This document shows, piece by piece, positions 22,072 through 55,998 of a stretch of 64,000 bases of DNA. A program made the translations under genes and the position numbers. How positions within the stretch are numbered: position 1 is the stretch's first letter; each line of letters opens with the position of its first letter. The notes beneath the pieces were generated by a model. The model worked only from the letters and a program-made list of their open reading frames with translations, was not told where the DNA came from and did not search any database. This stretch comes from Magnetococcales bacterium (GTDB lineage: Bacteria; Pseudomonadota; Magnetococcia; Magnetococcales; UBA8363), in assembly GCA_015228815.1 (NCBI GenBank), contig JADGCV010000001.1, positions 1 through 64,000 on the forward strand. The letters are read 5' to 3'.

Positions 22072-23588
22072 GAGTTGTTATTTCTCTTCTTCCTCTTTGG
22101 CTTTGGGGAGACCATGAATGGTAACGGGCCTAATAGTTCTTTTTCACTGAGTTCCAAATCAACATTATCCTTCATGGCAAGACAGGCGATGTGATAATCA
22201 GTGGCAATACTTTCCATAAATTCTCGTATTTTAGAGCATGCCCGTGGATCATCTGGCATAAAAAATATAAGATAGAATGTAGGTGTACGTTTACGCCTAT
22301 TTTTTATATTCGTAGCAGCTAATTTCTTCTTTTCATCTAAGGTTCGTTCTCTCGCTCCTCTTGGCTGTTTATAGAACCTCTTGATCAGATAATTATTCAC
22401 TGCATTTTGAAAATCTGGAGAAAATTTCGCATCCAGGTGTTTTCGAAGGTTCTCGGCTTCCGATTTTACATCAATACCTGAATCCGGAACGTCGGGCAAG
22501 CTGAATGCCCCCTTCGGCAGTTCATCCTCACTCCCTCCATCTCGGAACTGCGCTGACCGGACATCCACGCCTGCCATAATAATTTCCGCCACAGTTTCAT
22601 GAAAGGCCGGTAATTCAACAAATAGGGGATTGGCTAAGTCTTTATCGATCTTGATGTCCTCAACAATTCTGTTATCATACAAGGCTGGAAGGAGCAGTCT
22701 AACGACATCGTATAACACATTCTGTTTGGACACATCATCAGCTTCTTTCCAGGATGTGTAGAGGCTCTCTAACATGTCAGGCAAGGAGATCCTTAACATG
22801 CATTCAGCCAATAGTCTCCCTTTTTCCTCCTTCGATGAAGCTCTTCCCCACTCAGCGCCTTTTCCAAATTCCTGTGCCACAGGAGCAAAATAATCGACAT
22901 TTTTCTGGATCTCTTTCTCTAGAAGTGCGCGATATTCATCGAGCCTATTCTGCTTGTCGTCGTATCTAATCGCCTTACGAAAATCGGGGTCCTCCAGCAT
23001 CTTCCAGGAAGGAACCGCATGCAGTCTTTTGCCATCGAAACCTGAAGGAATGGATTGTACAATTCCGATGAGTTTATCCTGGACAACGACAGCCATGCCG
23101 GAAACCCCTTTCCAGCCTTCTTCCCGAACTGGATTCGCGTCTTCGGATATTTCAAAGTACGGTTTGGAATCCATCATGGAATAAACCTTGCCATGAAAAC
23201 TGGCGGATTTTGGGCAATCTTCCCGCCGAGCCACATGGGGAAAACCCTCGCTTGCCCACTCTGTACCCTCTCTTGGGCGTTCCGAGGAAAGAAACAGATA
23301 TTCCTTTGGTGTCCACGACCTTTCAGGAAGACGCAGCAGGGCGGCATCCAGATCATCCTTGCCACACCAAACAATCTCCGCCTCCAGCCAACCCTGATCG
23401 TCCTTTTCCTCGGGTTTGTAGCCCCACCATTTCGCTTTGACGGACTTATCCCGGTCCCGGTCCTCGGGTTCAAGAACATGCCGGGCCGTAAGAATCAAGT
23501 TCGGCGCTACAGGATAACCCGTGGCCAACTCAGCAAGATCATCCGTGGTCGGCACACTGATGATCACCACAAAATCTCTAAAATTCAC
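22068..23588 (-). CDS. Trypsin-like serine protease with C-terminal domain, predicted effector
   Basis: The 506-residue protein has no signal peptide, so it would act in the cytoplasm. Residues ~1-190 form a trypsin-fold peptidase with an apparently intact triad: His37 in TARHVL, Asp81 in DLDAALLRL and Ser163 in GVSGMAV. The remaining ~310 residues are helical and unassigned. They may correspond to the VMAP-type region that accompanies MoxR/vWA partners. The extreme C-terminus is Lys/Arg-rich. The DNA of the C-terminal half is clearly AT-richer than the flanking genes. It follows the trypco2 gene after 14 bases and overlaps moxR by ATGA. The inferred role is an effector protease activated by the ATPase complex. 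Confidence 0.88.
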   Translation of the reverse strand: MNFRDFVVIISVPTTDDLAELATGYPVAPNLILTARHVLEPEDRDRDKSVKAKWWGYKPEEKDDQGWLEAEIVWCGKDDLDAALLRLPERSWTPKEYLFLSSERPREGTEWASEGFPHVARREDCPKSASFHGKVYSMMDSKPYFEISEDANPVREEGWKGVSGMAVVVQDKLIGIVQSIPSGFDGKRLHAVPSWKMLEDPDFRKAIRYDDKQNRLDEYRALLEKEIQKNVDYFAPVAQEFGKGAEWGRASSKEEKGRLLAECMLRISLPDMLESLYTSWKEADDVSKQNVLYDVVRLLLPALYDNRIVEDIKIDKDLANPLFVELPAFHETVAEIIMAGVDVRSAQFRDGGSEDELPKGAFSLPDVPDSGIDVKSEAENLRKHLDAKFSPDFQNAVNNYLIKRFYKQPRGARERTLDEKKKLAATNIKNRRKRTPTFYLIFFMPDDPRACSKIREFMESIATDYHIACLAMKDNVDLELSEKELLGPLPFMVSPKPKRKKRNNNS

Positions 23589-41222: not shown

Positions 41223-42100
41223 CACGCCGTTTTCGCGCCCCGGCCAAGGTCAATCTGTCGCTTGAAATCCTTGGCCGCAGGGAGGATGGATACCATATCC
41301 TGGACAGTATCATGGCTTTTTTTCCATGGTACGACCATCTGGAGGTCACATGCGGCGGAAGCGCGGTCACCCTGGAATGCCATCCCACGGTAACGGTGGC
41401 GGCGGAAGAAAATCTGGTCCATCGTGCCGCGGTCGGACTCAAGAAAAAGGCTGGGATCACGACCGGCGTCCACCTGGCTCTGTTCAAGGAAATTCCCCAC
41501 GGGGCCGGTTTGGGTGGTGGTTCCTCGGATGCGGCGTTGACGCTCCTGGCGTTGAACCGGATGTGGCAATTGAACTGGTCCGTGGACGAACTGAGCCTTC
41601 TCGGAGTGGAACTGGGCGCGGACGTGCCATTCTTTCTTGGCGGACATGCGGCCCGGGTCGGTGGCATCGGTGAACGAATCACCCCTCTGCCCGGGATGCG
41701 GGAATGGGAACTGGTTGTCGTTCATCCCGGAATCATGCTCGCCACGGCAGCCGTCTACAGGGGAATCACCCCCCGCATGTTGGCACAATGGGCGCAAGAA
41801 TCCACCCTCCAGGAAGAAGGCCCGGAGTCTCCGAGATGGCGGTTTGAAAACCACCTGGAACAGATTGCCCGGACGCTGACGCCCCTCATCGAGGTGGTCG
41901 CGCAACAGTTGCACGCCGTTGGCGCCCGATCGACGCTGATGTCGGGCAGCGGTTCGGCGGTTTTCGGTGTCTTTGATCATGGCGACCAGGCACGTGAAGC
42001 GGCCACACAAATCTCCCGTTCCCATCCCGAATGGCGGGTCAGGCAAGGACGAACGTTCACTATTCATCCATTTGACCGGGAATGGCAATCCGGTATATAA
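41219..42100 (+). CDS. ispE: 4-(cytidine 5'-diphospho)-2-C-methyl-D-erythritol kinase
   Basis: IspE phosphorylates CDP-methylerythritol in the MEP isoprenoid pathway. The 293-residue GHMP kinase begins RFRAPAKVNLSLEILGRREDGYH, has the ATP-binding loop PHGAGLGGGSSDAAL, GADVPFFL and a C-terminal MSGSGSAVFGVF. Length and motifs are normal. The start overlaps the lolB stop by ATGA. Confidence 0.97.
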   Translation: MTRRFRAPAKVNLSLEILGRREDGYHILDSIMAFFPWYDHLEVTCGGSAVTLECHPTVTVAAEENLVHRAAVGLKKKAGITTGVHLALFKEIPHGAGLGGGSSDAALTLLALNRMWQLNWSVDELSLLGVELGADVPFFLGGHAARVGGIGERITPLPGMREWELVVVHPGIMLATAAVYRGITPRMLAQWAQESTLQEEGPESPRWRFENHLEQIARTLTPLIEVVAQQLHAVGARSTLMSGSGSAVFGVFDHGDQAREAATQISRSHPEWRVRQGRTFTIHPFDREWQSGI

Positions 42101-42119
42101 AGGGAGCCATCTCCTTCCT

Positions 42120-42194
42120 TGGGCCGTCGCCAAGCGGTAAGGCACCGGATTTTGATTCCGGCATTCCTAGGTTCAAATCCTAGCGGCCCAGCCA
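42120..42194 (+). tRNA. tRNA-Gln (anticodon UUG)
   Basis: This is a full cloverleaf of 75 bases including an encoded CCA. Acceptor TGGGCCG pairs with CGGCCCA. The anticodon stem CCGGA/TCCGG holds loop TTTTGAT, giving anticodon TTG. The T-arm CCTAG-GTTCAAA-TCCTAG is canonical. It lies 19 bases after ispE. Confidence 0.96.
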
Positions 42195-42315
42195 CACCAT
42201 CATGATCACCCCGTTTCACTTTCTTTAGAACCGTTCCTGCCCTGTCGCCCAAAAATCAAGTGACATGATCACACCTCCGTCCTTGTTTTGACTTCAGAAC
42301 CACTGGAGAAAGAAA

Positions 42316-43047
42316 ATGTCTCGAACCGTTACCCTGGAAGATGTCTGGAAGGCGTTCCTGGAAACAGACCGTAAAATGCAGGAAACAGACCGTAAAATGC
42401 AGGAAACAGACCGTAAAATGCAGGAAACAGATCTCAGGTTGCGAACAACCAACGAGGAAACGGACCGAATGATTCGGGAAATGTCCGTCGAGACTGCCCG
42501 TCGGCAACAGGAGACAGATCGCCTGATACAGGAGACCGCCCGTCGGCAACAAGAGACAGATCGCCTGATACAAAAGACGAGTCAAGAAATCGAGAAGGTC
42601 AACAAACAGCTCAACCAACAGATTGGCAAGCTGGGGGGACGCATGGGAGAATTCGTGGAGGGATTGGTCGCTCCCGCATGCAAAACCCTGTTTGTGCAAA
42701 GAGGCATCCCGGCGCACAAGGTCAGCCGACGAATGGAAGCGGAGTTGCCGGGCGACCGACGCATGGAAATCGATCTTTTCGTGGTCAACACCAATGCCAC
42801 GATTCTGGTGGAGGTCAAAAGCAAATTGACGGTGGAAGATGTACGCGACCACCTGTCACGCCTGGAAGCGTTCAAGGAGTTCTTCCCGGAGTATGCCGAC
42901 AAGCGGACGATGGGAGCGGTCGCCGCCATGGTCATTGAAGAGAAGGTCGTGAATTTCGCCATCAAGAAAGGATTGTTCGTCCTCATGCAGACGGGTGAAA
43001 CAATTCACCTTGCCAACGATGCGGATTTCACTCCACGGGAATGGTAA
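42316..43047 (+). CDS. Coiled-coil DUF3782-type (PD-(D/E)XK nuclease-like) protein
   Basis: The 243-residue cytosolic protein begins with an N-terminal coiled coil (about 15-105) made of repeats (ETDRKMQ three times, ARRQQETDRLIQ twice). A C-terminal domain resembles DUF3782 and carries a PD-(D/E)XK-like core: MEIDLFVVNTNATILVEVKSKL with the Asp and Glu-x-Lys arrangement, then LEAFKEFFPEYAD and GAVAAMVIEE. Such a core is nuclease-like, but activity is not demonstrated for this family as far as I know. GGAG lies eight bases upstream. The repetitive DNA hints at variable coiled-coil length. Confidence 0.82.
   Translation: MSRTVTLEDVWKAFLETDRKMQETDRKMQETDRKMQETDLRLRTTNEETDRMIREMSVETARRQQETDRLIQETARRQQETDRLIQKTSQEIEKVNKQLNQQIGKLGGRMGEFVEGLVAPACKTLFVQRGIPAHKVSRRMEAELPGDRRMEIDLFVVNTNATILVEVKSKLTVEDVRDHLSRLEAFKEFFPEYADKRTMGAVAAMVIEEKVVNFAIKKGLFVLMQTGETIHLANDADFTPREW
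42361..42423 (+). repeat. Three tandem 21-bp repeats in the DUF3782-type gene
   Basis: Three exact copies of GAAACAGACCGTAAAATGCAG encode ETDRKMQ heptads of the coiled coil. A fourth partial copy (GAAACAGAT) follows. Complete identity at DNA level indicates recent slippage-type expansion. Confidence 0.95.
42496..42579 (+). repeat. Two tandem 42-bp repeats in the DUF3782-type gene
   Basis: Two 42-bp units (42496-42537 and 42538-42579) encode ARRQQETDRLIQ(E/K)T. They differ at a few positions, so they are older than the 21-bp repeats just upstream. Confidence 0.9.
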
Positions 43048-43058
43048 GCGGATTGGTC

Positions 43059-44558
43059 TCAATGGACCTCCAGGACCCGGGTTGCCGCAGGTCTGAAACC
43101 CAACAGGTGATAGGACCGTTTCGGATCCATGTCATAACGCAAGGTTGCCCGGACCGAATCACCACGACTCAACCATCCACCACCACGATAGACACGGGTC
43201 TTGCCCATCACGGGTCCATCGGGGTTGTCTCGCGACGCATAGCGATAAGCATCCGCGTCATACCAATCCGCAACCCATTCCCATAGATTGCCGCTCATGT
43301 CGTGCAGTCCAAAACGGTTGGGGGCGCGTTCTCCGGGGGCATGCGGTCGGTTGTCGGAATTCTCCTCGACCCAGGCCAGGTCGGTGATTGCGCCACTGCC
43401 ACAATGACGTTGGTCCACACCACCACCGGTACAGGCAAATTCCCATTGCGCCTCGGTAGGCAGACGCATCGAAACCCCGGATCGTTTGTTCAGCTCCTGA
43501 AAAAATTGTTCGACATCCTGCCATGAGACATTGCCCACGGGGAGCCGATCGTCCTGAATCGATTGTTCCGGCATCCAGTTCATGACCAGACGCCACTGTT
43601 TCTGCGTGATTTCATGGGCTCCAATCCAAAAGGAATCGAGGCAGACTTCATGTGGAGGCTTTTCATTTTCGTCCCATGTGTCGCTTCCCATGAGAAAGCA
43701 TCCGCGTGGCACCTGAACCAGGGTGATCCCCGTTTCCGGATCGGTCCATTGGGGAAGTTTTTCCGTGCCACTCCCTTTGCCAACCGAGGAACCTTCCTGT
43801 CCCCGAGGAACAGTGGCGGAACCGGTCGTCTGGTTGGAACGGAGCGTTTCTTTTCGGTCAAGCTCCGGGTTGGGGACCGGAGACGTGGAAAAGGAAGGGG
43901 AAAGAGTTGGGGTCGGAATGGAGGTCGCGACCGCTTGTCCGATTTCGGCGCGATCTTCCTTGCGAATCGATTCCATGGGACTGGTGAAGGTCCGTTGATC
44001 CATGTTCCAGACCTGCCGCTCTCTTTTGATCATTCCCTGGGCATCGGGCGGATGGGAAAGAATGCCCGTGCCATGGCGTTGTCCGTCGAGGTAAGTCCCT
44101 TCGTAGCGGGCGCCGTTGGGCCAGGAGTAGACGCCCTGGCCATGGCGTTTGCCATCGACGAATTCTCCTTCGTAACGCGCCTGGGTCGGCCAAGTGAAGA
44201 GACCCCGGCCATGGCGCTTGTCATTGCTGAACGTCCCCTCGTAACGGGCGCCGTCGGGCCAGGTTTGAATCCCCTTGCCATGACGCTGTCCATCCTTGAA
44301 TTCCCCTTCATAACGGACACCATCGGGATAATCCCTGGTGCCCTGGGATTTTTGGGCAGTGGCCAGGATCGCCGGCTCGCCGAGCCAGGAGCCCAGGGTC
44401 GAGAGGGATTGACCGGCGATATCCTGGCTGGGATCGGGAACCACGCATCCCCCAAGCAGCAGCGTCATCGACAGAAGCGCTCGCAGGTCAATTTTCCGGG
44501 ACTGCGGCAAGGAAAAAAGGGCAAACAGCGCGCAGGAAATGATCGAGGGTTGTCGCAT
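43059..44558 (-). CDS. Lipoprotein with four MORN repeats and a formylglycine-synthase-fold domain
   Basis: The 499-residue protein has a lipoprotein signal with Cys38 in LLLGGC. Four MORN repeats (about 65-155) follow, each around W/YPxGxRYEGxFxxxxRHGxG. A Ser/Thr/Pro-rich linker leads to a C-terminal SUMF1/FGE fold (VPRGCFLMGSD, LPTEAQWEFACTGG, FGLHDMSGNLWEWVADW, RGGGW, LLGFRPA). The region where true FGE enzymes carry their cysteine pair (SVRATLRYDMD) has none, so catalysis is unlikely. ATG 44558 shares one base with the RND permease stop (TGATG). An envelope protein whose binding partner is unknown. Confidence 0.88.
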   Translation of the reverse strand: MRQPSIISCALFALFSLPQSRKIDLRALLSMTLLLGGCVVPDPSQDIAGQSLSTLGSWLGEPAILATAQKSQGTRDYPDGVRYEGEFKDGQRHGKGIQTWPDGARYEGTFSNDKRHGRGLFTWPTQARYEGEFVDGKRHGQGVYSWPNGARYEGTYLDGQRHGTGILSHPPDAQGMIKRERQVWNMDQRTFTSPMESIRKEDRAEIGQAVATSIPTPTLSPSFSTSPVPNPELDRKETLRSNQTTGSATVPRGQEGSSVGKGSGTEKLPQWTDPETGITLVQVPRGCFLMGSDTWDENEKPPHEVCLDSFWIGAHEITQKQWRLVMNWMPEQSIQDDRLPVGNVSWQDVEQFFQELNKRSGVSMRLPTEAQWEFACTGGGVDQRHCGSGAITDLAWVEENSDNRPHAPGERAPNRFGLHDMSGNLWEWVADWYDADAYRYASRDNPDGPVMGKTRVYRGGGWLSRGDSVRATLRYDMDPKRSYHLLGFRPAATRVLEVH

Positions 44559-47500
44559 CAACGGGATTCCATCAATTGAAGTGTGGTGGTGGTGGAACGC
44601 GACCGTCGTTTCCTGCCCCAGAAGGTCAGATAGATCAACGGCATGAGAAAAAGAGAAAGCAGGGTCGAAAACGAAAGGCCCCAGACGATCGCGGTGGCGA
44701 CGGGACCCCACAGGAGCGATTGTCCTCCCATGCCCGTTGCCAGGGAAAACAGACCGGCAATGGTGGTGACGGTGGTGATGAGTATCGGGACAAGACGCCT
44801 TCTGGAGGCATAAATGATGGCATGCACCGGCGCCATTCCCGCCCTGCGGCGATCATTGGTGGCGGAAATCAGGACGATGGCGGCATTGACCGCGATTCCC
44901 GACAGGGCGACAACGCCATAGAGGGTATAAAGGCTCAAAGGGTGTCCCGAAAGAAGAAGCCCGAAGACCACCCCCGTGAAGGCCATCGGAACGGTCAGGA
45001 GGATCATGAACGGTTGCGAATAATTGCCGAACTGGGTCCCCAGGATCATGTACATCAGCCCGATACCGAACAGAAAAAGGACGACGATCGCGTCGATGGC
45101 CTCGTTAAGGTCGTCCAGGATGCCCGAAAAATCAAGATCGATTCCAGGATAATCATGCCCGATCCTCTGCCACTCCTTCTTCAGTAGAGCATTGGCCTCC
45201 AGTGTGTCCATGATTTTCTTGTCCAGGTCCGCCTCGACCGTGATCGAGCGGCGAAAATTGTAATGCCGGATCGATTCGGGTCCCCTCTGGGTCCGGTGAT
45301 GCACCAGGTTGCGCAATCGGATGGCCTCGCCGCTTTCGGTGGCCAGAAGGGTGTCAAGAATCTGGTCGATGGCGGCCCCCTCGGGCTGGTCGGCCATGAC
45401 CCGGACTTCCATTTCTTCTCCCTGGTGCTGGAAACGCGCCGAGACCAGGCCATTGCCGAGCAGATGGATCAACCGTGGCAGGTGGGACGGGTGAAATTGC
45501 GCCCGTTGCAAAGCGGAACTGTCGCCCGAGACGACCAGTTCGACATTTCCTTCGGAATAATCGTCGGTGACATCGCTGATCCCCGGAACGGATCGAAGGT
45601 AGGATTTCAGGGCATTGGCCGCCTGTTCGAGCTGCGTGAGATCATCGCCGCGAACCTTGACGCTGATGGGACGGGTGACCGGGGGACCCCCGGTCATCGA
45701 GAAAAAGGTGATGCTTTCGGGACCCGCCACCCGGGTGGCGATGGGACGCATGGCGTCGATGATGGCGCTGACCTCGCGCCGTCGATCGCGGTCGGGGGAC
45801 AGACTCACCAGAATCTGGCCATAGCGATCGCCGAAAAACGGTTTGGTATCGGTCATCATCTGGCCGGCGTAGGCGACCATCGTTTGCAGTTCTTCCGGTT
45901 TGACCTCCTTGATCGCCTCGATTTCGACCGCCCGGGTCACGGCCATGGTCCGTTCCAGGGGGGTGCCCGCGGGCATCTTGATGTTGATATAGAAGAGGGG
46001 CATCGGATCGGCGGCGAAAAAGTCGGTCTTGACCATCCCCGAGGCAACCACCCAGATCGCCACGGCAAACGGAGTCATCGCCAACAGGAACGAAATCCGG
46101 GCATGGCGAAATACCTTGACAAGAGCCAGGGAATAAATGTGCCGCAACCGGGCAAGCGTTCGTTGGCGATGTTTTCTAAGCCATCCTGTTTTGCGATGCG
46201 TGATATTCATGACGACCATATGGGCCGGCAGCATCCACAACGCTTCCACCAGGCTGATCAAGAGCGCCATGGTGACGACGAAGGGGATGACACGCATGAA
46301 CTTGCCCAGAATTCCCGGCAGCAGCATGAGCGGAAGAAAGGCAGCGATGGTGGTCAATACCGAGGTGATGACGGGAAGCGCCACCTCCCTCAAGCCGGAA
46401 AGGGCGGCCTCCATGGCCGGAATCCCTTTTTCGATTCGGGCATGAATCGCCTCGACGATGACGACGGCGTCGTCCACCAGCATGCCCAGAGCGATGACCA
46501 CGCCGAGCAGGACCATGACGTTGAGCGAATGATCCAGGCTGTAGAGCAGACCAAACAGACCGGCGAGGGAAAAAGGGACCCCCAGCGAGATCAGGATCGA
46601 AATCCGGCCTCCGAGAAACAGCCATGTGGTGACCAGAACCAGGGACAGACCCAGAAGGGCATTGCCCTCCATGATCCCCAGGGCGTTGCGAACCGTATGA
46701 GTCTGATCATCGGCGAGGATGGGGGTGACTCCGGTTTTTTCGGCGAGTGCGCGTTGTCCTTCCAGGTAATGGCGAATCCTGTCGGTCAATTCCAGGGCGT
46801 TGACTCCGGGACGTTTGGTGATGGTCATGAGAATGGCCGGTTTTCCCTGGTACCGGACCGCCTCCTTGGCCTTCTGCCGGGCGGTCACGACCTCGGCGAC
46901 CCGTCCCAGGGGCAATTCTCCCTGGACGCCGGGGAGAGACATGGCCTTGATCCGCTCGGCATCGATTGTGGCCCCCTCCATGCGAAACAGCCAGTTGCCC
47001 CATCCGTGAACGATCGCCCCCCCCGAAACATCCTCGATACGGGTGGCGATCAGGTCGGACAACTGGGTGGGCAGAATGCCTGAGCGTTGCAGTTTTTCCG
47101 GGTGAAAGCGGATCTGCAACTCCGGATCGCGCAATCCCAGGGCAAAGACATCGTCCACCCCCTTGATCCGTTCCAGATCCTTTTTGATACGCCGGGCGTT
47201 GCGTCGCAGGTTTTCGTCATCCGCCAGGCCCGCGACCGCCACCATGACCGTGGGCCAGCCGTTGGCGCTGGTGATTTCCATGATCACCGGATCGGTGGCA
47301 TCCTCGGGAAGTTCCGCATCCTTGTTGGCGATTTCCCGCCGCAGATCGTTGACTCGTTTGTCGAAGGTGCGATCATCCACATCCTCGAAACGTACCAGAA
47401 TATCGGCGGCCCCCTCCTGACTCGTGGACATGGCAAAGCGGACATCGGGAATTTTCTGGATCGCCTCTTCCAGGGGATCGGTGACCATTTTTTCGACATC

Positions 47501-47665
47501 CGTCGCCGATCCCCCGGGGAACAGGGTGACGATACTGATCCAGTTGAAATTCATGTCCGGATCCTGTTGCCGCGGCAGGAGCCCATAGGCGAGAAATCCG
47601 GTGATCAGGACCAGGGCGAAGGTCAGATTGGCAAAGACATGATTCGACAGCAGGGCGCGCATCAT
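44558..47665 (-). CDS. RND efflux permease (HAE1/AcrB family)
   Basis: An inner-membrane proton-coupled transporter of 1035 residues, normal length. TM1 lies at about 12-30. The TM4 aspartate pair is in GMLVDDAVVIVEAI, a large porter domain lies on each half (e.g. DPDMNFNWISIVTLFPGGSATDVE), and the last TM block is VVALSGIAVNAAIVLI. It overlaps its adaptor gene by ATGA. It probably extrudes a hydrophobic or amphiphilic compound; substrate unknown. Confidence 0.93.
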   Translation of the reverse strand: MMRALLSNHVFANLTFALVLITGFLAYGLLPRQQDPDMNFNWISIVTLFPGGSATDVEKMVTDPLEEAIQKIPDVRFAMSTSQEGAADILVRFEDVDDRTFDKRVNDLRREIANKDAELPEDATDPVIMEITSANGWPTVMVAVAGLADDENLRRNARRIKKDLERIKGVDDVFALGLRDPELQIRFHPEKLQRSGILPTQLSDLIATRIEDVSGGAIVHGWGNWLFRMEGATIDAERIKAMSLPGVQGELPLGRVAEVVTARQKAKEAVRYQGKPAILMTITKRPGVNALELTDRIRHYLEGQRALAEKTGVTPILADDQTHTVRNALGIMEGNALLGLSLVLVTTWLFLGGRISILISLGVPFSLAGLFGLLYSLDHSLNVMVLLGVVIALGMLVDDAVVIVEAIHARIEKGIPAMEAALSGLREVALPVITSVLTTIAAFLPLMLLPGILGKFMRVIPFVVTMALLISLVEALWMLPAHMVVMNITHRKTGWLRKHRQRTLARLRHIYSLALVKVFRHARISFLLAMTPFAVAIWVVASGMVKTDFFAADPMPLFYINIKMPAGTPLERTMAVTRAVEIEAIKEVKPEELQTMVAYAGQMMTDTKPFFGDRYGQILVSLSPDRDRRREVSAIIDAMRPIATRVAGPESITFFSMTGGPPVTRPISVKVRGDDLTQLEQAANALKSYLRSVPGISDVTDDYSEGNVELVVSGDSSALQRAQFHPSHLPRLIHLLGNGLVSARFQHQGEEMEVRVMADQPEGAAIDQILDTLLATESGEAIRLRNLVHHRTQRGPESIRHYNFRRSITVEADLDKKIMDTLEANALLKKEWQRIGHDYPGIDLDFSGILDDLNEAIDAIVVLFLFGIGLMYMILGTQFGNYSQPFMILLTVPMAFTGVVFGLLLSGHPLSLYTLYGVVALSGIAVNAAIVLISATNDRRRAGMAPVHAIIYASRRRLVPILITTVTTIAGLFSLATGMGGQSLLWGPVATAIVWGLSFSTLLSLFLMPLIYLTFWGRKRRSRSTTTTLQLMESR

Positions 47666-48837
47666 GGTTTGACGCCGGTGGTTTCGTCGAGGTGAATCTT
47701 CTGGCCGTCTTCGAGCGCGTCTCGTCCTTCGACGATCACCCTGGCCGACCGGTCGGGGAAGGGCCAGGGGGTTCGTCCCCCTTCGACGGCATTGGCCAAG
47801 GGTTGGAAAACCCCGATTCCGTCACGCGCCACGAACAGTCCCAGGACCCCCTTGCGGCGGACCAGAACCCAGGAAGGAAGATGGGGACGTTGATCCCGCC
47901 ACTGCAAGCGTCCTTCCGCTCCGGGGACGGGGCGTTCCCCATCCAGGGTAAACCGGACCTCGCGGGTCCCCGTGGTGGCGGATTCGAGTGGAATGACCCC
48001 CTTGAGCGCCAGGGCAAAGGTTTGGCCCTGGTGGACAAAACCAAGGTCGCTGCCCTCCTTGAGCCGTTGGAGCGCTTCCGCCGGAACCCTGGCCGAGACT
48101 TCGACATTTTTTGGATTCAGAAGGCGCACGATCGGGCTTCCCGGGGCGATCCATCCCCCGACATGGCCGAATCGTTCGACGACGATGCCCGCGAACGGGG
48201 CAGTCAGTCGGGTTCGGTCGAGACGGGCCCGTGCCTCATCGACCATCCCTTTTTGTTGGGCGATTCGTCCCTTCAGGACTTCGACCTCGGCCTCGGCGGT
48301 ATCCAGCCGTTCACGGCTCGCCTGTTGTCCCGACAGCAGGGTGCGAACCCGTTCCAACTGCACCCGGGCCAGGTGCATCTGGCCGTGCAATACCGCAAGA
48401 CCCGCCTCTTCCTGGGACAGTTTCAGGCGATGGGACCAATCGTCGATTTGTGCCAGAACGTCTCCCTTGACGACGGCATCCCCGACCTCGACCTCCAGCC
48501 GGGCGATGATTCCCGGAACTTCCGTCGAAAGAGCGACATCATCGAGGCCGATCACCCGCGCCTGGGCCTCTTCGACGGGATGGGAAAGAAGCTCGGATAT
48601 GGGGGTGATCGAAACCTTGACGGCCTTGACGGTCTCGTCGGCCAGGGCCAACGAATTGGCGCCCAGAAAAACACAAAAAAGAAGGACGAGACCGGGTTGC
48701 CACCGTTTCGCGGAATACCCGACCGCAGTGGACGACAGGCCGGAATGTTTGTTGCCACGGGTCGCTGGAGAAGCGGGAAAATTAAAAATATCCAAAACTT
48801 GATCCCAGGGCGTTCCTGTTTTTCCCGACGTGTCCAT
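47662..48837 (-). CDS. RND efflux periplasmic adaptor
   Basis: About 391 residues from ATG 48837, chosen because AAGGA lies five bases before it. A long in-frame extension to 49311 is unsupported. An unusually long n-region precedes the hydrophobic leader (PGLVLLFCVFLGANSLALA). Lipoyl halves (LSTEVPGIIARLEVEVGDAV, TAPFAGIVVERFGHVGGWI) flank a coiled-coil hairpin (LHGQMHLARVQLERVRTLLSGQQ). Beta-barrel regions follow. Partner of the RND permease at 44558-47665. No outer-membrane channel gene is adjacent. Confidence 0.87.
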   Translation of the reverse strand: MDTSGKTGTPWDQVLDIFNFPASPATRGNKHSGLSSTAVGYSAKRWQPGLVLLFCVFLGANSLALADETVKAVKVSITPISELLSHPVEEAQARVIGLDDVALSTEVPGIIARLEVEVGDAVVKGDVLAQIDDWSHRLKLSQEEAGLAVLHGQMHLARVQLERVRTLLSGQQASRERLDTAEAEVEVLKGRIAQQKGMVDEARARLDRTRLTAPFAGIVVERFGHVGGWIAPGSPIVRLLNPKNVEVSARVPAEALQRLKEGSDLGFVHQGQTFALALKGVIPLESATTGTREVRFTLDGERPVPGAEGRLQWRDQRPHLPSWVLVRRKGVLGLFVARDGIGVFQPLANAVEGGRTPWPFPDRSARVIVEGRDALEDGQKIHLDETTGVKP

Positions 48838-49346
48838 GGGGTCCTTTTCCATTGCGATCGTGGCGCCGAAGCGGATGTTCCGTGCGGAATGCATTTTTGG
48901 CACGCCCATTGAAATATACCTGGTCATCCGGCAAGCGGAGGATCGGAAGATCGGATATCGGTTCCCTCGGATGGTACACGAGGTGGTCGAACCCCTCCCG
49001 GACGGGATCTGGACCCATGACACAACTGAATCGACAAGTGGAGCGAGGCATGGACAATGTGATGTTTCTGGCGATTGGATTGGTTCTTTATTTTGCAATC
49101 TTGACATGGCTTTTGTTCCGGGCTGCCAGACCAGGGAATTGATCGTGGAAGCAATCAGGGAATCGGTATCCATGAATCCTTGGCTCCAAGAATGGTTATG
49201 GTCCAGGGAGAGTGATTTCCCTGGTGGTAAGGTCCGGGGGAAAAGATCCTGTGAAACATGCACGCGAACCTTGAAATCAAGGCCCTGGGGGCGCCCCACC
49301 CCGAGGGCCATCCTTCAGCTTACTCCTTCTTCATCGTCAGCGCTCA
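48838..49346. other. 509-base stretch with one possible tiny gene
   Basis: Between the adaptor start and the SGNH hydrolase stop I see only the 30-codon frame at 49050-49142. The antisense extension of the adaptor frame has no ribosome site and no conserved features. Nothing else is assignable. Confidence 0.5.
49050..49142 (+). CDS. Possible 30-residue single-helix membrane peptide
   Basis: The frame starts at ATG 49050 with GGAGCGAGG directly upstream and encodes one hydrophobic helix (MFLAIGLVLYFAILTWLLF) followed by a basic end (RAARPGN). This topology is typical of tiny membrane regulatory or subunit peptides. No family is recognised and chance occurrence is possible. Confidence 0.35.
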   Translation: MDNVMFLAIGLVLYFAILTWLLFRAARPGN

Positions 49347-50555
49347 TCAGTGCGATTCAAGAGTGCTGAACGACGATGTTCCGTCCGCGCCATGGTGAAG
49401 GTTTTTGCCAGATTGGAGGATGGGGACCAGCTGTTCTGCAAGCCATTGGGCAAAAATCCGGCTTCCTTCGGGTAAAAAATGGATGTGGTCGTCGAACAGG
49501 GTGTCATTTCCGTGGAATTGTTCTGTCCTCAGAAATACGGCTCCCGTTTTTCGCGCAACTTCCTCCAGGATGGCGTCTGCCTTTTCAAATCCCTGGACCA
49601 TTCCCGAATGTCCAAGCTGGGAAAAATGAAAGCCGATCTTCTTTTTTTGCTCCTCGGTATTGTTCCGGGTCACCAATCTCGCCTGCTGAATAATGATCGG
49701 AACAGCTTGAATGGCCTTGGCCAATTCAGCAAAGAGGGTGTAGGTCAACCGGTATTGCTCCAGAGGCATGGGCATGATGTCGTTTTTTTCACGTTCTTCT
49801 GGTGCGATGACTTTCCCTTCACTCCCTATGCCATACCACCACAGCACAAATCGGTCGCGAAGTTGGAAAAATACCTGGGAATTTTCGCATAATACTTTGT
49901 CCACAAAGTTGAAATACTGATAACGTGGATTTACGTTGGCGACATACGGGTTGGCCTGGTCGGATAGCATTTCGTTGGATGAGAATAGTTTCAAATCATT
50001 CCAGGCATTGACCAGGATGGCGATGTCAGGCTGGAAAAAGTGTCCTTCCGAGTAAAACCTTCCAAAGGAATCAAAAGACGCCGCTCCCGGGATGCCCGCG
50101 TTGATGACCTCGACCGGGAAGTTTCTGTCACGCAGGTACTTCTCGACCAGATGGGGCCAATCTTCTCCCCGAAGAGCGCCACCATCAAACACCTGAGAAC
50201 CACCGTAGATAATGATGCGCTTAATTCCAGGCTTTTTCTCAATGGTGAATTCCGGACCCAAATATCCAAGTGAGTTGATCTGCCAGTGCGTTGATGAATT
50301 CTGGAACTTGGGAGCGCCTTTACGCAATCTAAGTCGTGAAAAAAGCGATGGAATAAACTCCAGTTGGGCAGAACTTTTATTTTCAAGGATTTCTGGAGTA
50401 AGATATTCAACCGTAGATCTGATATAGATTTCGCCAAGGATCCATGATAAAATAAAAGGAATAACAACAAGGGCGAGAATAAATTTAAACTGCACCCTCG
50501 GTTGGTCGCTTTTTCGTGGAAAGTGGGCATCGCGTCTTTGAACTTCGGTGGACAC
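49347..50555 (-). CDS. Membrane-anchored SGNH/GDSL-type hydrolase
   Basis: The 402-residue protein has one N-terminal membrane helix (about 25-45). The rest lies outside the cytoplasm. SGNH blocks are visible: YGGSQVFDGG (nucleophile Ser), GIPGAAS (Gly), LVNAWNDL (Asn) and the C-terminal DDHIHFLPEGS (Asp/His pair). Such proteins often add or remove acyl groups on cell-surface polysaccharides. The gene is AT-richer than its neighbours, which hints at lateral origin. It follows ftsK after 32 bases on the same strand. Confidence 0.85.
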   Translation of the reverse strand: MSTEVQRRDAHFPRKSDQPRVQFKFILALVVIPFILSWILGEIYIRSTVEYLTPEILENKSSAQLEFIPSLFSRLRLRKGAPKFQNSSTHWQINSLGYLGPEFTIEKKPGIKRIIIYGGSQVFDGGALRGEDWPHLVEKYLRDRNFPVEVINAGIPGAASFDSFGRFYSEGHFFQPDIAILVNAWNDLKLFSSNEMLSDQANPYVANVNPRYQYFNFVDKVLCENSQVFFQLRDRFVLWWYGIGSEGKVIAPEEREKNDIMPMPLEQYRLTYTLFAELAKAIQAVPIIIQQARLVTRNNTEEQKKKIGFHFSQLGHSGMVQGFEKADAILEEVARKTGAVFLRTEQFHGNDTLFDDHIHFLPEGSRIFAQWLAEQLVPILQSGKNLHHGADGTSSFSTLESH

Positions 50556-50587
50556 CGGGTTTTCTCCTTGTCACGTCGCAAGCCTGG

Positions 50588-53500
50588 CTATTGGCTGTTG
50601 CCCGGCGGCAGGACCTCCCGTTTTCCGGCGCTGTTGGACGGAGTCACCAAACCATCCGCCTCCATCCGCTCAACGATGCGGGCGGCGCGGTTGTAGCCAA
50701 TCTTGAAATGACGCTGCACCATGCTCGTGGAAACCTTGCGTATCTTGAGTACCAGGGCCACCGCCTGATCGTAGAGGGGATCGTATTCATCCAGGGCGTC
50801 GCCGTCGGAGGAAGAACCTCCAGGGCCGAAATCTCCGCCGTCGTCGTCTTCGTCCACATGTCGCATCACCGCCATGTCGTAGCGTGACGTGCCGTGGTTT
50901 TCCTTGAGAAAACCGACCAACTTGTGAATTTCGTTGTCGGTCACCAGGGGGGCATGGATCCGTTTGAGATGGGCAGTGCCGGGGGGAAGATAGAGTCCAT
51001 CGCCCATCCCCAGGAGACGTTCCGCTCCCATGACATCCAGAATGGTGCGCGAATCAATTTTCGATGACACCTGGAAGGCCAGACGGGTCGGAAAATTGGC
51101 CTTGATCAACCCGGTGATCACATCGACCGAAGGACGCTGGGTCGCGACGATCAGATGCAATCCTGCCGCCCGCGCCATCTGCGCCAGGCGGGCGATGGCG
51201 GGTTCGACCTCCTTGCCTACCTGAATCATCAGGTCCGCCAATTCATCGATGACGATGACGATCAGGGGTTTGGCGACCAGAGGAATCGGTTCGTCCTGTT
51301 CGACCGGCGCCCCCGTCTCGGGGTCGAAACCGATCTTGACCCGCCGTGTCGGTCGCTCTCCGGTTTCGCGGCACTGAATGATCCGCCGGTTGAAATTATC
51401 AAGCCCCCGGACCCCCATCTCCGACATCAGGCGATAACGATCTTCCATCTCCAGGACCGCCCATTTGAGCAGATTCGCCGCCTTGTGGACATCCGTGACC
51501 ACCGGGGCCAACAGATGGGGTATCCCTTCATAGACCGACAGTTCCAGCATCTTCGGATCGACCATGATAAACCGTACCTGGTCGGGCCGGGCGCTGAACA
51601 AAATGGAGCAGATCATCGCGTTCAACGCCACCGATTTGCCCGATCCCGTCGTTCCCGCCACCAGAAGATGCGGCATCCGCGCCAGATTGGCCACCACCGG
51701 GTTGCCGGTGATGTCCGACCCCAGGGCGACCGCCAGTGGATGCCGGGTATTGACGAAGACCTCCGATTCCAGCACCTCCCGCAGATAGACCGTATTGCGC
51801 GACGGATTCGGAACCTCGATGCCGATGACATTCTTTCCCGGAATGTTGCCAACCACCCGTACCGACGGCGAGGAAATCGACCGGGCCAGATCATCCGAAA
51901 CCGTGATGACCTTGGAGGCCCGCAGTCCCGGAGCCGGGTCGAATTCGAACGTCGTCACCACCGGACCCGGAAGGACGTTGGTAATCTGCCCCTTGATCTT
52001 GAAGTCGGCCAGTTTCAATTCCAGGAGACGCGCCTGCTGCGTCAGATATTCCCGATCGACCTCCGCCGCCCCCTTCGTGGGTTTTTCAAGAAGGTCGAGC
52101 GGGGGAAGCGGCGGCGCGTCTTCCATCGGCTCTTCCGCTTTTCCCTCCAGGGAATCGTCACCGGTACATCCAGAAGAATCCTCCTCGTTTCCAGGATCAT
52201 CCGGATCCCCCGCGACCCCCTCCCTTCCCGGAACGAAATATCCTGGATCCTCCTCTTCGTCGAACGGCTCTTCCAGATCCCTGGGGACGAGGTTGCGTTC
52301 GTTTTCCATCCGGCGCGGCGCGGCAAACGGGGTCAGATCGGGTTGTGGACCGCGATCCGTGTCCAGGTCGTCGCGTATGGCTGAAAAAGAGGGTCCTTCT
52401 TCCCGCTCGATCGTGCCATCGGTTTCGTCACGGACCATGGCGACCGGTCGTTGCCGTGCCAACGCCGCGACAATCCATGATTCCTCTTCGTCGGGGGTGG
52501 GTTTCCTTCCATGCGCTTCGGTGATGGGCAAACCCCCGGAACAAAGAGAATCGGCAGCTAAACATTCTTCCCGGACGGTTGTTTCATCCGAAAACGCCTG
52601 GGGGGCCGATTCCTCCCCGATTGTCGCGGGGCCACTCCTGTCCAAGGCAAATACCGATGGCAAAGAGGTTTTTTCCTCATGGGAAACAAGCGCCTCGTGG
52701 AAAGAGAATTCCTGTTCGTTCCGGCGGTCACTCAGACCGCGGATGGAAAAGGCATCCGCTCCATCGTCATCGGGATCGGAATCGCCAAACGGAGGCCGTG
52801 ATGGAAGCGGACGATCCTCGTCGTCATCGAGGGCCGGTTCCTGACGCATCAAAGGGACGGTGCGCGGTGACGGACGTACCGGTTCCTCGAACAGAGGAGG
52901 CCCCGATTCGTCAGGTTCCTGCTTCCGATCCTGTTTTTTCAGAAGCGCCGCAACCTTATCGACCGAATCGAAAACCAGACTCGCAACCGGGGCGAGAAAT
53001 TTTCCCGGTCCGAGACGTGGCGTGGCATACACGGCCTCTCCGTCTCGCGGGTCGTTGCCCGAGGCGGAAGCGAGCGATTGTCGTTGATCCTCGTGTTCGG
53101 AAACCCCTCCTCCGGAGCCATATTCCCCGGTCCGGCCAGGATCGGAAAAAGAAGGGGGGGACGGATCCGGGTCATCGATCGGTTGTCGAACCGGTTCGCT
53201 CCGAAAAGGGGGGAGCAGGGAATCGGGATCCTCCTGCCGTGATCCGCGAACTGTCGGTTCCCGGTCGGGTCGATCCTGGTCGGGCCGATCCTGGTCGATC
53301 CATGCGGATCTGTTCCGGTCCTGGTCGAGCCGATCGATCGATACGACCGATGGGGCGGGGTCGATATCCCAGTCGGTCTGTTCCAGGAGTTTTTCGCCGT
53401 CGCGGACCGCGTCGGCCCGAGGAAAGACATCATGGAGATCCATCATGCCGTGGTCATCGGCCTTGTCGGCAATGAAGTTTGTCGCGTCATCCTTCTCCGG

Positions 53501-54313
53501 AAGGGAATGGATCGGATCGGGGGACTCGAAACGGGAACCATGGCCGTCGCGGAAGGACGACTCGGGCTGATCCTGGAGCCTTCCGTCACGGAAGCGGAAG
53601 GGGGGAATGTCGTTTGCCTTGACTTCGAGTTCATAAGCGCCGGCCCCCTCGCGGACCATGGAACCGGTTGTCGCGGCAAGGGACGCTTCGGAGGTTTCGT
53701 CCGGACGGGACCGGGAAAAAATCGCACGGACGATGCCGGTGACGATACTGCCGATGCCGATCAGAATGGCAAACAGGGAAAACCGGGTCAGGACCATGAA
53801 GGAGAGCAGTCCCAGGGTGAAAAGAAGAAGCAGGGAACCCCAGTGTCCCAGAGTTTCCACGAGGGCCCGGGTCACCATCATGCCCGCCATGCCGCCGGGA
53901 CCGGCGGGGATCGAGGTCACTTCGCCCGGTGGAAAAAGGACCGACAGGATGGTGGTGACGACGGCGAGCATGGGAAGGGTGGCGATCTGTTCCCAGTGCA
54001 GCCCCCACGGCACCCGTCGCAGGCTTTGCACGGCGATCAGGCCAAGAAACAGAGGCAACCAGGCGGCGGAGTAACCAAAGAGCTGAAGGAGAAAATCGGC
54101 AAGGTAGGCCCCGGCGACCCCACCCAGATTGGTAACCTGACCGTTGCCGGTATTGTTGAACGAAGGGTCCTGGACATTATAGGAAAAAAGGGCGATGGCC
54201 AGGTAGGCGGTGACGCCGAGCAACAAGACGCCAAACCCTTCCCGAAGAATGGTCCGGCGCAGTTCTTGAGCTTTTTGTTCCTGTTGGCTGGATTTGTTTT
54301 TTTTTCGCGCCAT
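50588..54313 (-). CDS. ftsK: DNA translocase FtsK
   Basis: FtsK pumps DNA at the division septum and triggers dimer resolution. The 1241-residue protein starts at MARKKNKSSQQ, not at the long upstream in-frame extension, which overlaps rnj. Four to five N-terminal membrane helices end near residue 200. An acidic, Pro-rich linker of ~530 residues follows, with short DQDRPDQDRPD repeats. The motor has Walker A GTTGSGKSVALN, Walker B IVIDELADLM and ATQRPSVDVITG. The C-terminal winged-helix gamma domain (YDQAVALVLKIRKVSTSMVQRHFKIGYNRAARIVERME) recognises KOPS-like sites. Eight bases separate it from rnj. Confidence 0.96.
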   Translation of the reverse strand: MARKKNKSSQQEQKAQELRRTILREGFGVLLLGVTAYLAIALFSYNVQDPSFNNTGNGQVTNLGGVAGAYLADFLLQLFGYSAAWLPLFLGLIAVQSLRRVPWGLHWEQIATLPMLAVVTTILSVLFPPGEVTSIPAGPGGMAGMMVTRALVETLGHWGSLLLLFTLGLLSFMVLTRFSLFAILIGIGSIVTGIVRAIFSRSRPDETSEASLAATTGSMVREGAGAYELEVKANDIPPFRFRDGRLQDQPESSFRDGHGSRFESPDPIHSLPEKDDATNFIADKADDHGMMDLHDVFPRADAVRDGEKLLEQTDWDIDPAPSVVSIDRLDQDRNRSAWIDQDRPDQDRPDREPTVRGSRQEDPDSLLPPFRSEPVRQPIDDPDPSPPSFSDPGRTGEYGSGGGVSEHEDQRQSLASASGNDPRDGEAVYATPRLGPGKFLAPVASLVFDSVDKVAALLKKQDRKQEPDESGPPLFEEPVRPSPRTVPLMRQEPALDDDEDRPLPSRPPFGDSDPDDDGADAFSIRGLSDRRNEQEFSFHEALVSHEEKTSLPSVFALDRSGPATIGEESAPQAFSDETTVREECLAADSLCSGGLPITEAHGRKPTPDEEESWIVAALARQRPVAMVRDETDGTIEREEGPSFSAIRDDLDTDRGPQPDLTPFAAPRRMENERNLVPRDLEEPFDEEEDPGYFVPGREGVAGDPDDPGNEEDSSGCTGDDSLEGKAEEPMEDAPPLPPLDLLEKPTKGAAEVDREYLTQQARLLELKLADFKIKGQITNVLPGPVVTTFEFDPAPGLRASKVITVSDDLARSISSPSVRVVGNIPGKNVIGIEVPNPSRNTVYLREVLESEVFVNTRHPLAVALGSDITGNPVVANLARMPHLLVAGTTGSGKSVALNAMICSILFSARPDQVRFIMVDPKMLELSVYEGIPHLLAPVVTDVHKAANLLKWAVLEMEDRYRLMSEMGVRGLDNFNRRIIQCRETGERPTRRVKIGFDPETGAPVEQDEPIPLVAKPLIVIVIDELADLMIQVGKEVEPAIARLAQMARAAGLHLIVATQRPSVDVITGLIKANFPTRLAFQVSSKIDSRTILDVMGAERLLGMGDGLYLPPGTAHLKRIHAPLVTDNEIHKLVGFLKENHGTSRYDMAVMRHVDEDDDGGDFGPGGSSSDGDALDEYDPLYDQAVALVLKIRKVSTSMVQRHFKIGYNRAARIVERMEADGLVTPSNSAGKREVLPPGNSQ

Positions 54314-54321
54314 GATCGACC

Positions 54322-55998
54322 CTACATTTCCATGACCAGGGGAATGACCGCCGGTCTGCGACCCAGTTTCTTCTTGAAGAAGCGGCGCACGGCCCGTTGC
54401 GCCAGTTCCAAAGGTCCCGCCCCTTCGTCCTCGGCGAAATCCATCCCCTGGGGGCCAAGGCGAAGGGCCTCCTCGACCGCCTCCTTGGCCTGTTCCAGGA
54501 GAAGACGGTTGTCTTCCTCGTAGACGACGCCCCGGGTCAGGAGTTCCGGGCGTTGCAAAATGGCGCCGGTACTTTTTTCGACGACCAGCACCACGACCAC
54601 CAGTCCGTCTTCCGACAGGTGGCGCCGGTCTCTGAGGACGATGTCGCTGATGTCGCCGATTCCCTTGCCATCGACGAAGACACGTCCCGAGGGAACCAAT
54701 CCCTCCTGGCGCATTCCCGCGGCATCGATGACGATCCTGTGGCCGTTTTCGACCACGAGGGCGTGTCCCGGGTCCACGCCCATCTGAATGGCCAGGTTGC
54801 GATGGTTGTGCAGGTGTCGTATTTCGCCGTGGATGGGAATGAAATACCGTGGCCGGGTCAGGGCGAGCATCAGCTTGAGGTCTTCCTGTGGCGCGTGGCC
54901 CGAGACATGGATTTCGGGAAGGTTCGCTTCGTGGATCACCCAGGCCCCCGAACGAAACATGCGATTGACCATGGCCCAGATGGTCTGTTCGTTGCCGGGG
55001 ATGAAACGGGAAGAGAGGACGACGGTATCTCCGGGTCGCAGGTCGATTTCGCGATGTTCGCCGTGGGCGATGCGCGACAGGGAGGAGTTGGGTTCTCCCT
55101 GACTGCCCGAAGAGAGGACCACCATCTCGCACCGTTGGTAATGCGCAAAGGAACGGACATCGAGGATCATGTCGTCCTCGACCTTGAGAAATCCAAGGGA
55201 ACGGGCGACATCGATGTTGGTCTGCATCGAACGTCCGCTGATGACGACCCGGCGTTCGACGGCGCGGGCGGCGTCGAAGACCTGTTGGATGCGCTGAATG
55301 TTGGAGGCGAAGGTGGCGACGACGATCAGCCCTTCCCTCTTGGTGAACACCTTGAGCAGGGCCTCCGCAACCACCTGTTCCGAAACGGTAGCGCCGCGAC
55401 GGTTGATGTTGGTCGAATCGGACAGAAGGGCCAGGACGCCGCTTTCGCCGTAGCGGGCGAAGGAATACAGGTCGGTGGGACGGCGATCGACCGGAGTATG
55501 GTCAATCTTGAAATCACCGGTGTGGATGATCGTCCCCAGGGGTGTTTTGATCGCCAGGGCGGAGGAATCGACAATGGAATGGGAAACCTGAATCATGCAC
55601 AGGTTGAAGGGACCGACCTGGAAGGGTTGACGGTTGCGGACCTCGATCAGGGTGGCCCGGTCCAGGAGGCGGTGTTCGCGAAACTTGACCCGAAGCAGTC
55701 CCAGGGTCATGGCACTGCCGTAGATGGGTCCTTCGATGTCGGGCCAGATGTAGGGCATGGCTCCGGTATGGTCTTCATGTCCGTGGGTCAGAACGAATCC
55801 GACAACCCGGTCACGGTTTTCGACGAGGAAGGAGACATCGGGGATGATGACATCGACGCCCGGCGTATCGCTGCCGGGAAAGGTCAGACCGCAATCGACG
55901 ATGAGCAGTTTGCCATCGCAGCCGTAGACCAGAAGGTTCATCCCGATTTCGCCCAGACCGCCAAGGGGAATGATTTCCAGGGATTGGGGATTTCCCAT
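54322..55998 (-). CDS. rnj: Ribonuclease J
   Basis: A 558-residue metallo-beta-lactamase/beta-CASP nuclease with both endo- and 5'-exonuclease activity in RNA processing. It begins LEIIPLGGLGEIGMN, has zinc motif THGHEDHTGA, IIHTGDFKID, and beta-CASP motifs (SGSQGEPNSSLSRI, VHVSGHAP-type ISVSGHAPQEDL). Length is normal. It sits between tatC (three bases) and ftsK (eight bases), so all are probably one transcript. Confidence 0.95.
   Translation of the reverse strand: MGNPQSLEIIPLGGLGEIGMNLLVYGCDGKLLIVDCGLTFPGSDTPGVDVIIPDVSFLVENRDRVVGFVLTHGHEDHTGAMPYIWPDIEGPIYGSAMTLGLLRVKFREHRLLDRATLIEVRNRQPFQVGPFNLCMIQVSHSIVDSSALAIKTPLGTIIHTGDFKIDHTPVDRRPTDLYSFARYGESGVLALLSDSTNINRRGATVSEQVVAEALLKVFTKREGLIVVATFASNIQRIQQVFDAARAVERRVVISGRSMQTNIDVARSLGFLKVEDDMILDVRSFAHYQRCEMVVLSSGSQGEPNSSLSRIAHGEHREIDLRPGDTVVLSSRFIPGNEQTIWAMVNRMFRSGAWVIHEANLPEIHVSGHAPQEDLKLMLALTRPRYFIPIHGEIRHLHNHRNLAIQMGVDPGHALVVENGHRIVIDAAGMRQEGLVPSGRVFVDGKGIGDISDIVLRDRRHLSEDGLVVVVLVVEKSTGAILQRPELLTRGVVYEEDNRLLLEQAKEAVEEALRLGPQGMDFAEDEGAGPLELAQRAVRRFFKKKLGRRPAVIPLVMEM

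Follow-up and report, generated by a model that had tools for sequence, protein, structure and literature searches.

The locus studied here raises the question of what a predicted lipoprotein with four MORN repeats and a domain of the formylglycine-generating enzyme (FGE) fold does immediately downstream of an RND efflux permease. The preliminary description of the locus proposed that it may be an accessory subunit of the pump. The gene lies within a 64,000-nucleotide stretch of DNA from a member of the Magnetococcales (contig JADGCV010000001.1, positions 1 to 64,000), which is called the window below. The gene and the parts of its product are as follows.

43059..44558, minus strand: gene of the MORN-FGE lipoprotein, encoding 499 aa, stop codon included in the coordinates (open reading frame, Pfam and repeat pattern)
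44445..44558, minus strand: putative signal peptide with lipobox LLLGG-C38, Val at position +2 (recognized by eye; C38 is the lipid-accepting Cys)
44037..44312, minus strand: four tandem 23-aa MORN repeats, residues 83-174 (Pfam, pattern and model)
43749..43988, minus strand: disordered variable linker, residues about 191-270 (sequence identity and pLDDT)
43086..43724, minus strand: FGE/sulfatase-modifying-enzyme-fold domain without the catalytic Cys pair (Pfam, alignments and structure match)

The combination of four MORN repeats and an FGE domain on one lipoprotein, as first described, was confirmed by Pfam and pattern searches, with the lipobox read by eye. The MORN family (PF02493) was matched with 111.9 bits against a cut-off of 22.5 (E 3.5e-33), three stretches passing the cut-off alone, and the repeat pattern places the starts of the four units at residues 83, 106, 129 and 152. 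The FGE-sulfatase family (PF03781) was matched over residues 279-491 with 143.2 bits against a gathering cut-off of 23.3 (E 1.5e-41). The lipobox cysteine C38 is invariant in a 10-row alignment of orthologues (A1). Lipoproteins without Asp at position +2 are generally sorted to the outer membrane, and the lipobox with its Val at +2 suggests that the MORN-FGE product is probably anchored there. Among eight genomes of the same genus, the mean pairwise identity is 0.73 for the MORN part, 0.72 for the FGE domain and 0.25 for the linker. Because the two folded parts are equally conserved while the linker is not, both are probably under selection.

An AlphaFold model of the protein (m90d3528533f2), for which the sequence was aligned with 49 FGE relatives, has a mean pLDDT of 80.4, with values of about 90 in the MORN part, which forms a regular beta sheet, and mostly above 95 in the FGE domain, whereas pLDDT is below 50 over model residues 151-225, corresponding to protein residues 188-262. 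The modelled MORN part rests on one sequence, since the other alignment rows cover the FGE domain. In structure comparisons the rod matches the MORN proteins 6t68, 9ijj and 6jle. The best solved match of the head is TvpA (2y3c; Z 33.2, 224 aligned residues, 1.9 A, 31% identity), and further matches include PvdO (Z 31.2), PorK (9mzu, Z 28.1), FGE itself (about 28) and EgtB (about 23).

The FGE domain had initially been called cysteine-less. This is incorrect, as it contains four cysteines, C287, C306, C376 and C386, all invariant in the 10-row orthologue alignment, and only the catalytic pair, which we take to be of the C336/C341 type, is missing. A pattern search, whose pattern matches the control segment of human FGE, found this pair in none of the 10 orthologues, and alignment to human FGE likewise shows it to be missing. 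The pattern was likewise absent from all 14 FGE domains of the source genome with a readable site; two more of the 16 FGE matches in this genome do not cover the site, one because its frame changes before it (L003) and the other being partial (L016). In the FGE alignment A2, the pair is present in one of 50 rows. Judged from sequence, the lack of the pair is therefore not special to the window protein and is shared by all 14 readable FGE domains of its genome. A genuine formylglycine-generating enzyme was rejected as a candidate function given the absence of the pair from both the orthologues and the FGE domains of the same genome. The presence of two FGE domains in the window was confirmed, at C1:18476-19240 and C1:43086-43724. 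A row of genes for an FGE protein, a MoxR-like AAA protein and a trypsin-like protein (the trypsin match being under the Pfam cut-off) occupies window positions 18464-23588 on the minus strand and resembles FGE conflict systems as they appear in the available text of PMC10907252.

Because the catalytic, copper-binding cysteines are lost while the fold is kept, the head would serve in binding or as a scaffold rather than as a formylglycine-generating enzyme. A different chemistry is an alternative, since proteins of the PvdO and EgtB families share the fold but lack the Cys pair of FGE, and the window protein resembles both in structure and in weak NCBIfam matches. These matches, however, remain far under the cut-offs (48.7 of 500 bits for the PvdO equivalog model NF051459; 68.1 of 360 for EgtB), and we regard an enzymatic role of this kind as improbable.

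The source genome suggested another explanation, namely that the MORN-FGE gene is the target of a diversity-generating retroelement (DGR) and its FGE head a hypervariable receptor. A DGR with a reverse transcriptase, a template near 4798-4912 and FGE targets is present on contig C9 (101000-113000, locus L087), and the best fold match of the head, TvpA, is a variable protein. The variable repeats of this element differ from the template at 18 sites (VR1, all A in the template), 16 sites (VR2, 15 of them A) and 28 sites (VR3, 14 of them A). By contrast, the search gave no match between the 3' end of the MORN-FGE gene and the C9 template, and their alignment spans only 49 bases with 23 mismatches, four of them at A. 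The gene was thus rejected as a target for the C9 template, and we consider a DGR-based explanation extremely unlikely. Two further observations concern retroelements in this genome: one FGE target (L087:6163-7530, minus strand) changes reading frame inside its variable end, so that the usual C-terminal motif is lost, and a second reverse transcriptase is located on contig C10 (107884-108567; L085, L088).

The MORN-FGE gene was found in at least 15 of the 48 genomes of the order, a lower bound because only the best loci were counted. Thirteen genomes have both parts in one frame (G000-G008, G014, G019, G022 and G026, where G000 is the source genome), including G001 with a single open frame of 543 aa. 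In G025 (contig C20), the MORN part is followed by the FGE part in a different frame, which may reflect a frameshift or an assembly error, and in G020 the MORN lipoprotein is cut by the contig end. A search of 398 genomes drawn from the phylum gave a match at E 1e-50 in 39 genomes, every one of them within the order. For MORN repeats next to FGE domains in other bacteria, a MORN profile (E 1e-3, frames of at least 60 aa) that matched the window gene as a positive control had no match in the best 80 loci; these loci matched the FGE part with at most some linker, the search patterns lying in the FGE domain, and the result applies to them rather than to bacteria at large. A simple MORN pattern applied to 52 of these 80 FGE loci also gave none. 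The MORN-FGE fusion is unusual, and a literature search returned no paper on it. The pairs G000/G002, G004/G005 and G001/G006 are recovered in the RNase J tree as well as in the MORN-FGE tree, with weak deeper forks, and because of this agreement the gene was probably inherited vertically within the genus. Of two named Magnetococcales relatives, L104 and L119, the first belongs to a genome whose RNase J is 67% identical, and no RNase J was found in the genome of the second.

The genes upstream of the MORN-FGE gene in the window are as follows.

44558..47665, minus strand: RND permease of the AcrB/AcrD/AcrF family (ACR_tran, E 6.1e-167), its stop overlapping the MORN-FGE start
47665..48681, minus strand: matched part of the RND periplasmic adaptor (passes the TIGR01730 RND_mfp cut-off)
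50588..55132, minus strand: ftsK, the listed open reading frame being over-long at its 5' end and overlapping the RNase J gene; an upstream anchor common to the same-genus genomes

The TGATG junction between the permease and MORN-FGE genes can be read directly in the sequence, and the permease and adaptor families were both confirmed. The overlap was seen only in the source genome; in the two other genomes of the genus that share this gene order, the genes are separated by roughly 110-125 and 190 bases. Over the window region 42000-50600, Rfam models gave nothing over cut-off except a tRNA, and promoter-like and terminator-like sites are about as frequent as expected from shuffled sequences. 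As listed, the adaptor reading frame is too long: it extends to 49311 and thereby covers, on the opposite strand, a conserved 30-aa open reading frame (49050-49142, plus strand). The latter lies between ftsK and the next gene, has a GGAG ribosome site and one membrane stretch recognized by eye, and was found in seven of the 48 genomes of the order, all of the same genus. On the other side, a gene at 42316-43047 (plus strand), convergent with the MORN-FGE gene, encodes a protein with ETDRKMQ heptad repeats, for which there was neither a Pfam match nor a relative in the compared loci.

If the protein were an accessory subunit of the RND pump, it would be a lipoprotein under the outer membrane, with its rod and head touching either the adaptor or the exit duct. 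The operon-like run with its TGATG overlap in the source genome is consistent with such a role, as is the adjacency of RND and MORN(-FGE) genes in two families. The comparison across the order points the other way. The MORN-FGE gene adjoins the RND gene in four of the 15 genomes (G000, G002, G007 and G020); in G020, which belongs to another family, about 400 bases with a further open frame lie between the RND stop and the opening of the MORN frame. The two are apart in eight genomes (G001, G004, G005, G008, G014, G022, G025 and G026), and in the remaining three (G003, G006 and G019) the contig ends and the neighbour is unreadable, several of the genomes being drafts in which a contig stops at the MORN-FGE gene. 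Conversely, among 30 RND loci taken with flanks of up to 1.5 kb, some of them cut by contig ends, three contain a MORN-FGE gene (G020 is outside these 30). A separate FGE match without MORN repeats lies about 3 kb past the RND gene on the other strand in G026 (contig C67, L328:13785-14231, minus strand) and is not the MORN-FGE gene of this genome.

Neither do the two genes track each other in occurrence. RND orthologues, with 53% identity or more, are present in 33 of the 48 genomes of the order, in 12 of the 15 with a MORN-FGE gene and 21 of the 33 without (p 0.33, uncorrected for relatedness). No orthologue was found at E 1e-100 in the assemblies of G001, G003 and G006 (75, 74 and 97% complete), although another RND pump could serve in such genomes. 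Between G001 and G006, both without an RND orthologue, the MORN-FGE gene has a dN/dS of 0.121, indicative of purifying selection. In G001, the MORN-FGE gene comes straight after ftsK and no RND gene separates them, and both contig ends in G006 resemble by eye parts of this G001 interval, suggesting the same order in G006.

The preliminary description gave orthologues without the RND genes in most genomes as the finding that would refute its proposal, and for an obligate pump subunit this is the outcome. RND/MORN(-FGE) adjacency recurs in two families, but eight of the 12 genomes with a resolved position have the gene elsewhere. An obligate pump subunit is contradicted by these eight genomes together with the three without an RND orthologue and the lack of co-occurrence, and we consider an accessory subunit of this pump quite unlikely. 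The supporting argument that MORN repeats often bind lipids is weak as well: the available text of a study of MORN1 (PMC7725318) describes the repeats as protein-protein interaction modules, yet one of its three proteins co-purified with phospholipid, while vesicle binding was not observed. An operon neighbour in one genome is not enough to call a protein a pump subunit. A purely accidental adjacency to the RND gene, entertained when three of the first 12 intact genes showed it, was dropped given G020 and the mtxA neighbourhood described below.

A larger neighbourhood emerges around the magnetotaxis gene mtxA. The MtxA family was found in 41 of the 48 genomes of the order, and the gene was found near the MORN-FGE gene in G004; we annotated the mtxA stretches of G002, G004 and G005 together with 40 more. 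In G002, a single run reads FtsK-MFP-RND-MORNFGE-SG-HD-(TPR-)CHAT-MtxA. G004 and G005 keep MORNFGE-SG-HD-CHAT-MtxA and have FtsK-MFP-RND elsewhere, whereas in G000 and G007 the segment from FtsK through MORN-FGE is kept and MtxA-CHAT-HD-SG lies on a different contig, the latter stretch as read showing no MORN or FGE match. In another family, an FGE lipoprotein that lacks MORN repeats precedes SG, on the other strand, and then mtxA in seven of the 10 g7 genomes carrying mtxA; the remaining three (G023, G039 and G046) have SG and mtxA with no FGE gene there. In a further family, three of the four f9 genomes with mtxA contain MFP-RND-SG-MtxA, and the fourth has both genes at contig ends. RND and FGE genes therefore take the same position ahead of SG-mtxA in f9 and f7, respectively, which also speaks for a pump subunit. 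In many of the other mtxA stretches, TPR-CHAT is present with no RND gene and no FGE gene like that of the window protein.

The recurrent member of these stretches is SG, a protein of about 100 aa without a Pfam match over cut-off, examples of which are listed here.

L089:10072-10488, L281:9345-9677, L283:8045-8350 and others: SG genes

The SG proteins of f7 and f9 are homologous (best E 8e-11 to 3e-15 for three f9 proteins), and the SG profile also finds those of g1 (E 5e-16 to 5.4e-15, five genomes). In all cases found, no more than about 7 kb separates SG from mtxA; the stretches examined had been selected for the presence of mtxA, RND or MORN-FGE genes. In the FGE tree, the seven mtxA-linked g7 proteins form one clade (100/99), whose position next to the MORN-FGE clade of g1 is weakly supported (87/54), and the MORN-FGE proteins of other families are placed away from those of g1. 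The simplest account, and the one that best fits the gene orders, is a putative ancestral run MFP-RND-(MORN)FGE-SG-mtxA, broken at different joints, and the FGE tree is compatible with it. The g7 FGE proteins, which have no MORN repeats and whose sister placement is weak, are a counterpoint to shared ancestry.

The same rearrangements allow for a neutral explanation, in which rearrangement is frequent near mtxA and ftsK and gene order carries no information on function. At least three different break-ups of the run have occurred in one genus (G000 and G007; G004 and G005; G001) and contigs often end at the MORN-FGE gene. The neighbourhood may be a hot spot of rearrangement and not a functional unit. 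Against this stand the recurrence of the same few genes together in several families and the proximity of SG to mtxA. Neutral juxtaposition is in our view unlikely, though it deserves serious weight.

We give about an even chance to the interpretation that the MORN-FGE protein is a non-catalytic binding or scaffold lipoprotein belonging to an old RND-FGE-SG-mtxA neighbourhood, and not an obligate pump subunit. The product would be exported and lipid-anchored, probably at the outer membrane. As modelled, its four MORN repeats would form a short rigid beta-rod, and a disordered tether some 75 residues long would bear the folded head of the FGE/SME type. By analogy with published MORN1 dimers, the rods may bring the heads together in pairs or strings. 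Gene order points to an old arrangement of adaptor, RND permease, (MORN)FGE lipoprotein, SG and mtxA that has since been broken up in various ways, and the MORN-FGE protein most likely acts in the same envelope process as these neighbours. The available text of a study in Magnetospirillum (PMC4439547) reports that MtxA has a signal peptide, with possible periplasmic or extracellular interactions, and that cells deleted for mtxA showed no visible phenotype in standard conditions. The conserved neighbours of mtxA are testable partners for MtxA. Among the papers listed by a literature search, the one that mentions mtxA does not mention RND.

A bolder extension of the non-catalytic scaffold would combine the RND proteins, the FGE lipoprotein, SG and MtxA into a single envelope machine found only in this magnetotactic order. 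In it, MORN rods would array the non-catalytic FGE heads on the periplasmic or outer face, docking the pump and the exported magnetotaxis protein MtxA much as rings of PorK build the type 9 system. We give this a low probability.

Several known systems share features with the MORN-FGE lipoprotein. MORN1 and axonemal MORN proteins have the same 23-aa repeats and beta-rod, whereas the window protein has only four repeats, is a predicted exported lipoprotein and is fused to an FGE domain. Both domains are bacterial add-ons in metacaspases with a fused MORN or FGE domain, as described in the available text of PMC4933709; there each is joined to the protease, while in the MORN-FGE protein they are joined to each other. 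SUMF1, the formylglycine-generating enzyme, has the fold and the Pfam family in common with the head, the window protein differing in its lack of the catalytic Cys pair. The closest fold to the head, TvpA (Treponema denticola variable protein 1), differs in that the window gene is unmatched by the DGR template of contig C9 and in the added MORN rod. PorK/GldK of the type 9 secretion system is likewise a lipoprotein with an SME/FGE-fold core, which in PorK is structural and contains the canonical disulfide and calcium, according to the available text of PMC12635249. The window protein, in contrast, has a MORN rod and misses the GldK/PorK equivalog cut-off (TIGR03525) with 78.9 of 350 bits. PorK, to our knowledge, has no such rod. 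A MORN-tethered FGE lipoprotein would extend the structural use of the FGE fold beyond bacteria with type 9 secretion.
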